A stretch of DNA of 64,000 nt from Sphingobacteriales bacterium. GTDB taxonomy: Bacteria; Bacteroidota; Bacteroidia; Chitinophagales; Chitinophagaceae. The notes beneath the pieces were generated by a model, which was not told the origin of the DNA, did no database searches, and saw only the letters and a program-made list of their open reading frames with translations. Made by a program: the position numbers and the translations under genes. Of the stretch, positions 51,271 to 55,407 are shown one piece after another. The stretch covers positions 62,001-126,000 of the forward strand of contig SEFT01000009.1 in assembly GCA_004144175.1 (NCBI GenBank), in the 5' to 3' direction. Position 1 is the stretch's first letter; the number at the start of each line of letters is the position of its first letter.

Positions 51271-51308
51271 AAAAAATGGCCGGGCTCGATTCCCCGGCCA
51301 TTTTTTTT
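51271..51308 (+). terminator. Terminator of the clpX unit
   Basis: The stem aaaaaatggccggg/cccggccatttttt with a short loop and a T-run of eight follows the 50806 gene by about 30 bp. Confidence 0.9.
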
Positions 51309-51317
51309 GACCAGTGT

Positions 51318-51427
51318 CGTCATTGCGAGGAAGTATGACGAAGCAATCTCGCGAAATGAGTGGGGTTCCCATGCCGACGCAGGATTGCTTCGTACCCTGC
51401 CTGTCGGCAGGCAGGCTCGCAATGACG
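51318..51427. repeat. MITE- or REP-like palindromic element of 110 bp
   Basis: The outer arms are perfect 12-bp inverted repeats (cgtcattgcgag at 51318-51329 and its complement at 51416-51427). A second perfect 10-bp pair (acgaagcaat, 51338-51347 and 51384-51393) is nested inside, and a 7-bp hairpin (51397-51414) follows. No coding sequence. Elements of this look are scattered through Bacteroidota genomes; only one copy lies in this window. Confidence 0.65.
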
Positions 51428-51443
51428 GATAGAACCCAAAAAC

Positions 51444-51475
51444 AAAAAAGCACTAGTGCTAGCCAGTGCTTTTTT
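51444..51475. terminator. Terminator-like hairpin
   Basis: The stem aaaaaagcact/agtgctttttt with a 10-nt loop has U-runs on both strands and lies between the repeat element and the next minus-strand gene. Confidence 0.7.
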
Positions 51476-51517
51476 AATCATCATATCATAAGGCCCTATG
51501 GGCGTAATTTAGAAGAA

Positions 51518-51895: not shown

Positions 51896-52204
51896 TTAAA
51901 GCTTGATAGCCATTATTTTAGCGAGGAGTTCGCTTATATCAACGGCAGTGGTTGGTTTCTCATTTATCTCCTCAACGGAGTCGAACTCATGCCAAGTATG
52001 GTCTATTTCGTTGTCCCACGGATGCACGTGCATATACTTCAGTCCCCACTGATCTACGTAGAACCATTCGCCATCAATTAAGCACTTTCTGATTTCCTCA
52101 TCGATATAGCCCAGTTCAAGGTGGTTTCTATTGCTAAATATTTCTTCGTTGAACTGCTTGTAGTTAGCTCCGTCACGGTATAGGTAGGATAGTTTGATGT
52201 TCAT
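51896..52204 (-). CDS. Hypothetical protein with Trp-rich core
   Basis: The 102-residue protein (MNIKLSYLYRDGANYKQF...) has no signal peptide; a conserved-looking core (GEWFYVDQWGLKYMHVHPWDNEIDHTWHEF) is rich in Trp, His and Asp. The in-frame TTG at 52210 is not needed. Its gene is divergent from the XRE gene with a 67-bp gap that contains an imperfect palindrome, so it could belong to the adjacent accessory module. Function unknown. Confidence 0.65.
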   Translation of the reverse strand: MNIKLSYLYRDGANYKQFNEEIFSNRNHLELGYIDEEIRKCLIDGEWFYVDQWGLKYMHVHPWDNEIDHTWHEFDSVEEINEKPTTAVDISELLAKIMAIKL

Positions 52205-52271: not shown

Positions 52272-52493
52272 ATGAATATCAAGGATAAGGTAGGCCAGAG
52301 GGTACGCGAGCTAAGGCACGAGTTGCAGTTATCTCAGGAAGCTCTCGCCAACAAGGCTGGCGTTGATAGAACATATATGACTGACGTAGAAAACGGCAGA
52401 AGGAATATATCAATCGAAATCCTTGAGAAGATTATAGGTGCGCTTGAAGTTTCCTTTCAAGAATTTTTTAACGGTAAAGAGTTTCAGAAATAA
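52272..52493 (+). CDS. XRE-family transcription regulator
   Basis: The 73-residue protein is one helix-turn-helix domain: VRELRHELQLSQEALANKAGVDRTYMTDVENGRRNISIEILEKIIGALEV. Small XRE proteins of this size are common controllers of phage, restriction and defence genes. The stop codon overlaps the start of the broken nuclease-helicase gene by one base (TAATG), a sign of one operon and of coupled translation. Confidence 0.9.
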   Translation: MNIKDKVGQRVRELRHELQLSQEALANKAGVDRTYMTDVENGRRNISIEILEKIIGALEVSFQEFFNGKEFQK

Positions 52494-54472
52494 TGGGCGC
52501 ATTTTATATTAACTCTATCGACAAATTCCTGATGGATAGTACCCAAGAGGTAATAGGCCAACTTACTTATAAAAGCGGCCTCGCGGGATTCCATCAGCAA
52601 GTCCATAAACAAACTCTTTCATGGGCGGAGGAAATCTAAATCCTCAAGCAATCTTTAAAAAATATTCCTACTGTTGATTTAGGCAAATGTGGAATATTGC
52701 TAGAGTACCCCATTGCCAGACGTGAAAAAAGGATTGACGTCGTATTGACCATTAGGTCTGCAATTATCGTTGTCGAGTTTAAAAATGGTCGCGATTCATA
52801 CCAGAGAGCAGATGAAGAACAACTTTTAGATTACTGCCTTGATTTAAGGGATTTTCACTTTGAAACGAGGGATAAGGATATTTTTCCTGTGTTGCTAGCA
52901 TCAGATGCTCCTTCTAAATCTTCGTTTCCGCTTACCCAAGGCCATATTCAACCAACAGTATATGCAAATAGGCAGTCACTTAACGCAGTAATAAGAAGTA
53001 TCTGCGCCAATCTAACAGATAGCTATATCGACTTTGAAAATTGGAACAATAGCGTTTATTCGCCCACACCCACAATCATTGAAGCAGCAAAGACTTTATT
53101 TGCCGGGAAGTCAGTCGAAGAGATATCACGATCACATGCTGGAACAAAAAATCTTACTCGTACGACCAATGCAGTTGTGGAAGCGATCAAAAATGCTAAA
53201 CAGAATAATGAAAAGGTTATTTGCTTCATAACTGGTGTACCCGGTGCGGGCAAAACTTTGGCAGGACTAAATATTGCACACCATAGCGACTTTCAAACAA
53301 GCGAAAAATCCTTAGCCACTTTTCTCTCGGGTAATGGGCCTTTGATTAAAGTATTGCGAGAAGCGTTGAAAAGAGATGCAGTAGTTCGTTTGAAAAAGAT
53401 TGACCCCGATGTCAGGGCAAGGGAACAAGAGCGGATAATAGCTTTTATCGAAAACGTTCATAGGTTTATTGATTCTTATTTTACTAGCTCTGATGAAGTC
53501 CCGAATAATCAAATTATAATCTTTGATGAGGCGCAACGTGCATGGAATGCTGAGCATTCAAAACGCAAATTCCAAAGGCCATTTTCCGAGCCCGAGATGA
53601 TTTTTAATGTCATGGACAGGCACAAAGACTGGTCAGTGATCGTTGCTCTGATTGGCGGAGGACAGGAAATAAATACTGGAGAAGCTGGCTTACGGGAGTG
53701 GGGCAATAATATCATTTCCAAGTTTCCTCATTGGAAAGTCCATATCTCTCCAGCACTTAAAATAGGAAATCATAGCACTGGCAATCTAACGCTCTTTGAA
53801 CAGCAACCGCAACACGTTACTGTTATTGAGAACCCTGATTTGCATTTGGACGTTGCTATTCGGTCATATAAAGCAGAAGAGTTGTCAAAATGGGTAAACT
53901 TGATTCTTACAAATCAGCCTGATGTAGCAAAAACAGTCCTTACTAATAGCCTTCAGGAATATCCGATAGTTATCACAAGAAACCTGAGTAAAGCAAAGGA
54001 ATGGCTTTCAAACAAATGCGCGGGCACCAGAAGAATGGGGCTAGTAGCTAGTTCAGGGGCAAGACGTTTAAGGCCATATGGTCTGGATGTCAAAGCAGAA
54101 TTAGAAGAAGAAAATTGGTTTTTAAATCCTAAAGATGATGTCCGTTCATCCTATTATTTAGAAGTTCCAGCAACCGAATTCGGTATTTAAGGACTAGAGT
54201 TAGATTGGGTTGGAGTCTGTTGGGATGGAGATTTAAGGCGAACGGATAGTGTTTGGGATTACAGATCATTTAAAGGAACAAATTGGAGGAATGTAAGTAG
54301 TGAAGAAACTCGACAGTACATTCTTAATAAGTATAGGGTTCTTCTGACGAGGGCTAGAGAAGGAATGGTGCTATGGATTCCAGAAGGAAATAAAAATGAC
54401 GGTACTAGACAGCCTGAAATTTATGATCCAATCTATCAATATCTTAAAGAGTGCGGAGTCAAGGAACTATAA
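52493..54472 (+). pseudogene. Broken PD-(D/E)XK nuclease-helicase (DUF2075-type) gene with two in-frame TAA codons
   Basis: One uninterrupted frame of 659 codons spans the locus, but TAA stands at codon 49 (52637-52639) and codon 566 (54188-54190). The first 48 codons, the 497-residue middle part (usually read from a TTG at 52697) and a 94-residue tail share the frame. The middle part has an Asp-Glu-X-Lys site (RRIDVVL ... IIVVEFKNG; strictly EKRIDVVL) typical of PD-(D/E)XK nucleases, Walker A GVPGAGKT and Walker B IIFDEAQRAW. The tail has SF1-type motifs (GLELDWVGVCWDGDL; VLLTRAREGMVLW). At both TAA sites the family would usually have Gln, i.e. CAA read as TAA. It is visibly more AT-rich than its neighbours. 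Confidence 0.82.
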
Positions 54473-54634
54473 CTCTTCTTCATCATCCATCGCAACAAAT
54501 CGAAATTTGCAGGACTCATTCATGCAAATGTGTAATTGATAATGCTCGCCACCGCGTCTAAAATCACTTCTGCATCCACATTTAGGACATGTTGTAGGCT
54601 GATCGCATAACAAGTAAACGCAAGAGAAATACAT
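54467..54634 (-). CDS. Small zinc-ribbon protein of 55 residues
   Basis: The open frame from ATG 54632-54634 encodes MYFSCVYLLCDQPTT, then CPKCGCRSDFRRGGEHYQLHIC, then the pair CMNESCKF, ending in an acidic tail DDEEEL. The Cys pairs (CPKCG and CMNESC) look like a zinc knuckle. The gene converges on the broken helicase gene and overlaps its last 6 nt. A TAATTTTG box lies only 4 bp ahead of the ATG. Function unknown, but small zinc proteins are often regulators or antitoxin-like partners in such islands. Confidence 0.6.
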   Translation of the reverse strand: MYFSCVYLLCDQPTTCPKCGCRSDFRRGGEHYQLHICMNESCKFRFVAMDDEEEL

Positions 54635-55179: not shown

Positions 55180-55407
55180 ATGAGCGTTGAAGAAAGATAT
55201 TCTATTGAAATAATACGTTTCGGAAAACGTTTAAGGCAAATACGGGAAGAAAAGAATCTTTCACAACTCGATATTGAGCTACAATCAGGAATAAATCGCA
55301 CGGAGATTAGCAGAATCGAGAATGGCCAAAAGAATATTGAGTTCTATACAATCATTAAGCTGTCGGAAGCACTCGGCATTAAGCTTTCGACTTTGTTTAC
55401 AGACTAG
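55180..55407 (+). CDS. XRE-family regulator (controller-protein-like)
   Basis: The 75-residue protein is a single helix-turn-helix domain (IIRFGKRLRQIREEKNLSQLDIELQSGINRTEISRIENGQKNIEFYTIIKLSEALGI). Its size and domain layout resemble C proteins that time restriction-modification genes. Immediately downstream on the other strand is a vsr remnant, which supports a former R-M locus. The upstream palindrome is a likely binding site. Confidence 0.88.
   Translation: MSVEERYSIEIIRFGKRLRQIREEKNLSQLDIELQSGINRTEISRIENGQKNIEFYTIIKLSEALGIKLSTLFTD

Follow-up and report, generated by a model that had tools for sequence, protein, structure and literature searches.

When a long reading frame is interrupted twice by an ordinary stop codon and is otherwise continuous, has the gene been lost, has it been misread, or is it still translated in some unusual way? 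This question is raised by a stretch of DNA of 64,000 nucleotides (hereafter the window), in which positions 52493-54472 of the + strand translate as a single frame of 659 codons followed by a terminal TAA. A sequence-only reading had claimed that TAA also stands within this frame at codons 49 and 566 and that no frameshift accompanies it, and translation reproduced the claim in full: the first in-frame TAA occupies 52637-52639, the second 54188-54190, and no frameshift was seen between 52493 and 54472. The gene is present in only one copy in its genome, and the two stops divide it as follows:

52493-52639, + strand: 5' piece of a PDC-S41-like gene, 48 codons, closed by the first TAA
52640-54190, + strand: main piece, with the nuclease-like part and most of the helicase, closed by the second TAA
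54191-54472, + strand: 3' piece, carrying the final helicase motifs and closed by the regular terminal TAA

The three pieces match the PADLOC model PDC-S41 (657 positions) consecutively, at positions 3-45 (weak when taken alone, 18 bits, E 0.00015), 47-559 (635 bits) and 561-653 (148 bits), and are therefore parts of one gene. With the stops passed over by the tool, the same model gave one match of full family length, from position 3 to 654 with 839 bits. Pfam PF09848, the Schlafen group 3 helicase domain (formerly DUF2075), was matched by the main piece (176.3 bits, E 1.4e-51) and again by the 3' piece (59.4 bits, E 4.8e-16), in both cases against a cut-off of 24; where the second TAA interrupts the match, the profile passes from position 278 to 280. 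When the main piece was aligned with 10 intact relatives, the Walker columns GVPGAGKT and DEAQR proved invariant in all 11 sequences, including that of the window, as befits a Schlafen group 3 helicase. The residues E22, D33, E46, K48 and Q61 (main-piece numbering) were equally invariant in the same sequences and supply the conserved E, D...ExK and Q columns of a PD-(D/E)XK-type nuclease; Cas4 models matched weakly, and sequence searches of solved structures returned no useful match. Taking the name from this motif pattern, we regard the nuclease-like part as putatively PD-(D/E)XK-like.

The window gene thus resembles PDC-S41 (PDLC05014) in its three-piece match and in the domain order of the intact relatives, and differs from it in the two stop codons, at codons 49 and 566, that deny it a full-length ORF. 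It is a broken member of the family, not a working one. A limited literature search found no paper using the term PDC-S41. In the passages of PMC12988326 that concern them, the PDC families are putative and most of those discussed have no experimental test; they are presented there as single-gene candidates, among which we count S41 from its label, whereas the window gene lies beside a helix-turn-helix (HTH) gene and one or two small conserved genes. We accordingly treat PDC-S41 as a candidate defence family, with a putative anti-phage role.

The sequence-only reading had further proposed that both stops replace Gln, that is, that two changes had struck the same sense codon. The columns were examined in an alignment of 98 homologues, 18 from genomes of the same family and genus and 80 from public contigs, the latter being the best 80 of 576 relatives obtained by a contig scan with an alignment as query (an earlier contig scan with the window protein alone had confirmed 0 of 32 stretches). 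Two of the rows, L018 and L072, are the same sequence; L072 is a Flavipsychrobacter stenotrophus record whose gene product is also identical to that of genome G218. At codon 566 the proposal stood, with Gln in 98/98 homologues. It failed at codon 49, where the column is variable (Glu 26, Gln 13, Arg 10, 13 other residue kinds and one gap) and where the four nearest relatives carry Ile, Ser, Pro and Asn; Gln was accordingly dropped as the original residue at this codon, and with it the notion of a repeated change in one sense codon.

How much other damage has the gene suffered? Among 94 stop-free homologues, 110 columns reach a conservation of at least 97%; the window copy departs at two of them, and one of these is the second stop. 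Over the same columns 96 of the other 98 homologues depart at 0 to 4 positions and the remaining two at 8. Similarly, in a 19-sequence alignment the window copy breaks two of the 128 columns that are invariant in the other 18, the second break being a conservative Ile-to-Leu change, while the rest break 0 to 11. Another effector alignment comprised 46 of 92 references. Beyond the stops, then, no decay is visible in the gene. These counts support the earlier suggestion that inactivation was recent. To put them in proportion, all single-base changes of the gene were listed: 4.9-5.0% are nonsense and 11-12% are missense at conserved columns, the ranges covering two weightings. The probability that a second stop precedes a second conserved-site change came to 0.50-0.52, a figure that takes the first stop as given and ignores insertions, deletions and the time elapsed after the second stop. 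Because this probability is about 0.5, two stops with little other damage are unremarkable. The nearest relative of the gene is 66% identical, so that dN/dS is saturated and the loss is not datable. An uneroded frame is also compatible with continued translation of the gene, a reading to which we return below.

Broken copies of this family are not confined to the window. Family-model scans of the phylum found the gene in 19/294, 4/15, 24/396, 23/395 and 16/395 genomes, or 75 different genomes after repeats were removed; the scan of the class contributed 16/395 genomes with the gene, 14 of them new, and a sixth scan, of another family, found it in 9/86, none new. Among the 75, the copies of G200, G350, G582, G950 and G1102 are cut by contig ends and were judged only in part. 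Six of the 75 genomes hold a broken copy, the window's own among them, and the other five are damaged as follows:

G201: a frameshift
G529: a stop and a frameshift
G877: two stops and a frameshift
G1105: a frameshift and one or two stops
G1229: one stop

Four of the 80 public loci are also broken, L076, L098 and L101 by one stop each and L080 by a stop and a frameshift, and in one of the four a TAA falls on another invariant Gln. These loci were ranked by similarity, which biases the count towards intact copies, and they have at least one genome in common with the 75. As a small control, ClpX was read in the 15 genus genomes, in one of them over part of its length, and showed no stop in any. 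Such independent breakages of PDC-S41 copies hint at frequent loss of the gene once it has been acquired.

The positions of the first nine stops, taken from seven broken copies, correspond in window numbering to codons 47, 47, 49, 69, 110, 112, 145, 303 and 566. Codons 1-140 hold six of the nine (P 0.011, with stops drawn from the stop-prone codons of each copy). We had considered that the stops of broken copies might all lie at different codons, and this fails: L101 and G877 share a column at codon 47, two codons before the first stop of the window (P 0.083 for such sharing). Three copies have stops within two columns, at codons 47, 47 and 49 (the region around 52631-52639 in the window; P 0.004). 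All P values for the early cluster are post hoc, the cluster having been noticed before testing. In the 14 fresh genomes stops were found at codons 262 and 504 and perhaps at 294, the last being doubtful because a frameshift makes two frames overlap there, and the early cluster was not repeated among these two or three stops. We take the cluster as an open hint of an early region in which stops arise or persist more easily.

Three small genes lie around the broken gene, all of them open:

51896-52204, - strand: 'YRDxxNYK' family gene, 102 aa, divergent, a conserved companion of the module
52272-52493, + strand: small HTH (C-protein-like) regulator, 73 aa, intact, an upstream partner conserved in the genus
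54467-54634, - strand: small Cys-rich ORF (zinc-ribbon-like by eye), convergent, a companion in part of the relatives

In the sequence TAATG the stop of the HTH gene and the start of the broken gene overlap. Four of the 15 genus genomes, including that of the window, carry the nuclease-helicase gene, which we refer to as the effector, and in all four the divergent 'YRDxxNYK' gene and the HTH gene lie upstream. Compared with their counterparts in the other three of these genomes, the HTH protein is 78-86% identical and the main piece of the effector 45-67%. In 141 loci, with flanks of differing length and with duplicate stretches left out, relatives of the 'YRDxxNYK' gene were found near the effector 20 times, HTH relatives 23 times and relatives of the Cys-rich ORF 11 times, the last occupying the same place in several homologous loci. 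Relatives of the first, with the fuller motif 'YLYRDGxNYK', stand beside PDC-S41 in several orientations (L178, L179, L180, L016, L018, L070, L071, L073, L074, L077 and others), and this 102-aa protein may be a partner of the family. It has itself no match in Pfam or PADLOC; the alignment of this small divergent protein used 18 of 19 relatives, L070 being left out as its end looked shifted. A second small HTH gene, distantly like that of the module, lies at 55180-55407 on the + strand, about 0.7 kb past the broken gene.

The effector lies 1.7 kb downstream of ClpX in the window, whereas in each of the other three genus genomes that carry it the two are at least 155 kb apart. Because the place of the module changes in this way between genomes, we infer that it probably moves horizontally. 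The right-hand neighbours of the module were not found in the compared stretches of other genus genomes. GC content drops from about 0.48 to 0.40 and stays low to about 58.5 kb, well beyond the module. Effector relatives were encoded in four of 72,556 plasmid records, at 27-43% identity. A prophage origin was considered and found little support, relatives being encoded in two of the 34 pattern-matching stretches of viral contigs. Downstream of ClpX and its neighbour, at 51271-51306, there is a perfect inverted repeat with 14-base arms around a loop of 8 bases, whose arms end in A and T runs and which looks terminator-like. The stretch 51290-51480, when used as a query for further copies, matched itself and nothing else.

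Taken together, these observations very probably mean that nonsense changes have recently inactivated a nuclease-helicase of the PDC-S41 type, which is the effector of a small candidate defence module, HTH-regulated and probably moving between genomes horizontally. In the mechanism we propose, the protein of the intact relatives would couple a PD-(D/E)XK-like nuclease to an SF1-like helicase and so bind and cut nucleic acid, under the control of the HTH regulator whose gene overlaps the effector start. Two substitutions would have created the TAA codons in this genome. With the first in place the product would end at 48 residues. Were translation to restart further on, the second TAA would still cost the protein its final helicase motifs. 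Effector function is presumably lost, while the regulator and the two small flanking genes remain open. Defence genes are gained and lost often.

An artefact is the alternative to be taken most seriously, although we consider it unlikely: one or both stops could be sequencing, assembly or strain-mixture errors, the gene being intact in living cells. The assembly is a draft in 93 contigs, and apart from the stops the frame shows no erosion, both as this account would have it. Against it, the gene contains no frameshift, the ClpX gene next to it runs open from end to end, PriA is present as an ORF of 829 aa, and the family is broken in other records as well, two of which (L080 and L098) are not labelled MAG. 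Two independent substitution errors within 2 kb would be unlikely at decent consensus coverage. The sections of PMC9252829 that deal with pseudogenes of defence systems name sequencing or assembly error as their other cause; the window case is like those described there, a defence-type gene broken by nonsense changes, with no difference in kind. A freshly inactivated effector is more likely than sequencing error.

The sequence-only reading had allowed that TAA might be read through or recoded in this gene, giving a full-length protein, and had suggested looking for a suppressor tRNA with a UUA anticodon. No such tRNA came to light: ARAGORN assigned no UUA anticodon at any of the 39 tRNA places found in the genome, of which 38 exceed the Rfam cut-off and the weakest gave no tRNA, although the genome is 97.6% complete and a suppressor could lie in the missing part. 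Nor is TAA rare as a terminator: of the contig's 107 non-overlapping ORFs with 150 codons or more, 59 end in TAA, 39 in TAG and 9 in TGA, and within the window TAA ends 21 of 39 ORFs, both TAA counts including the main piece of this gene itself. Codon-usage and dicodon scans of the contig for other stop-interrupted genes listed 3 and 13 places; they are insensitive and were not used as evidence, because the dicodon score just past the gene's own stops is negative (-0.04 and -0.06). What speaks for recoding is the preserved downstream frame and, as a weak post hoc hint of a tolerated site, the two other broken copies that stop two codons before the first stop of the window. Set against these, the stops of the early cluster are a mixture of TAA and TAG and do not all share a column, frameshifts accompany stops in at least two of the six broken phylum genomes, and the second stop stands in place of a Gln shared by 98/98 homologues, which does not suggest a programmed site. 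Recoding is therefore improbable, and we give it hardly any credence.

It is just as doubtful that the gene has been split into pieces acting as separate proteins, the large one restarting inside the frame. A 497-aa ORF that begins with a TTG at 52697 and is closed by the second stop does hold most domains of the broken gene, and a restart of translation would make it tolerable that three copies carry stops around codons 47-49; but this ORF is without residues 1-68 and the final helicase motifs, where near-invariant columns lie, and no other broken copy has stops at both points. The chance is similarly slight that the gene is alive through a site-specific or conditional bypass of the stops, whether by readthrough or by restart past codons 47-49, yielding a little nuclease-helicase. 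If that were true, the stops would turn down a costly defence effector much as a dimmer does, with the HTH regulator and the partner genes kept intact.

What the window holds thus looks like ordinary recent gene loss and not a special reading of the genetic code. The case is in itself an ordinary one, a freshly lost effector beside an intact regulator, and it yields as a by-product a candidate defence gene with conserved companion genes in one clade. For the family as a whole, the broken fraction of about one in twelve to twenty copies examined is in keeping with a gene that carries a cost or is of use only occasionally.
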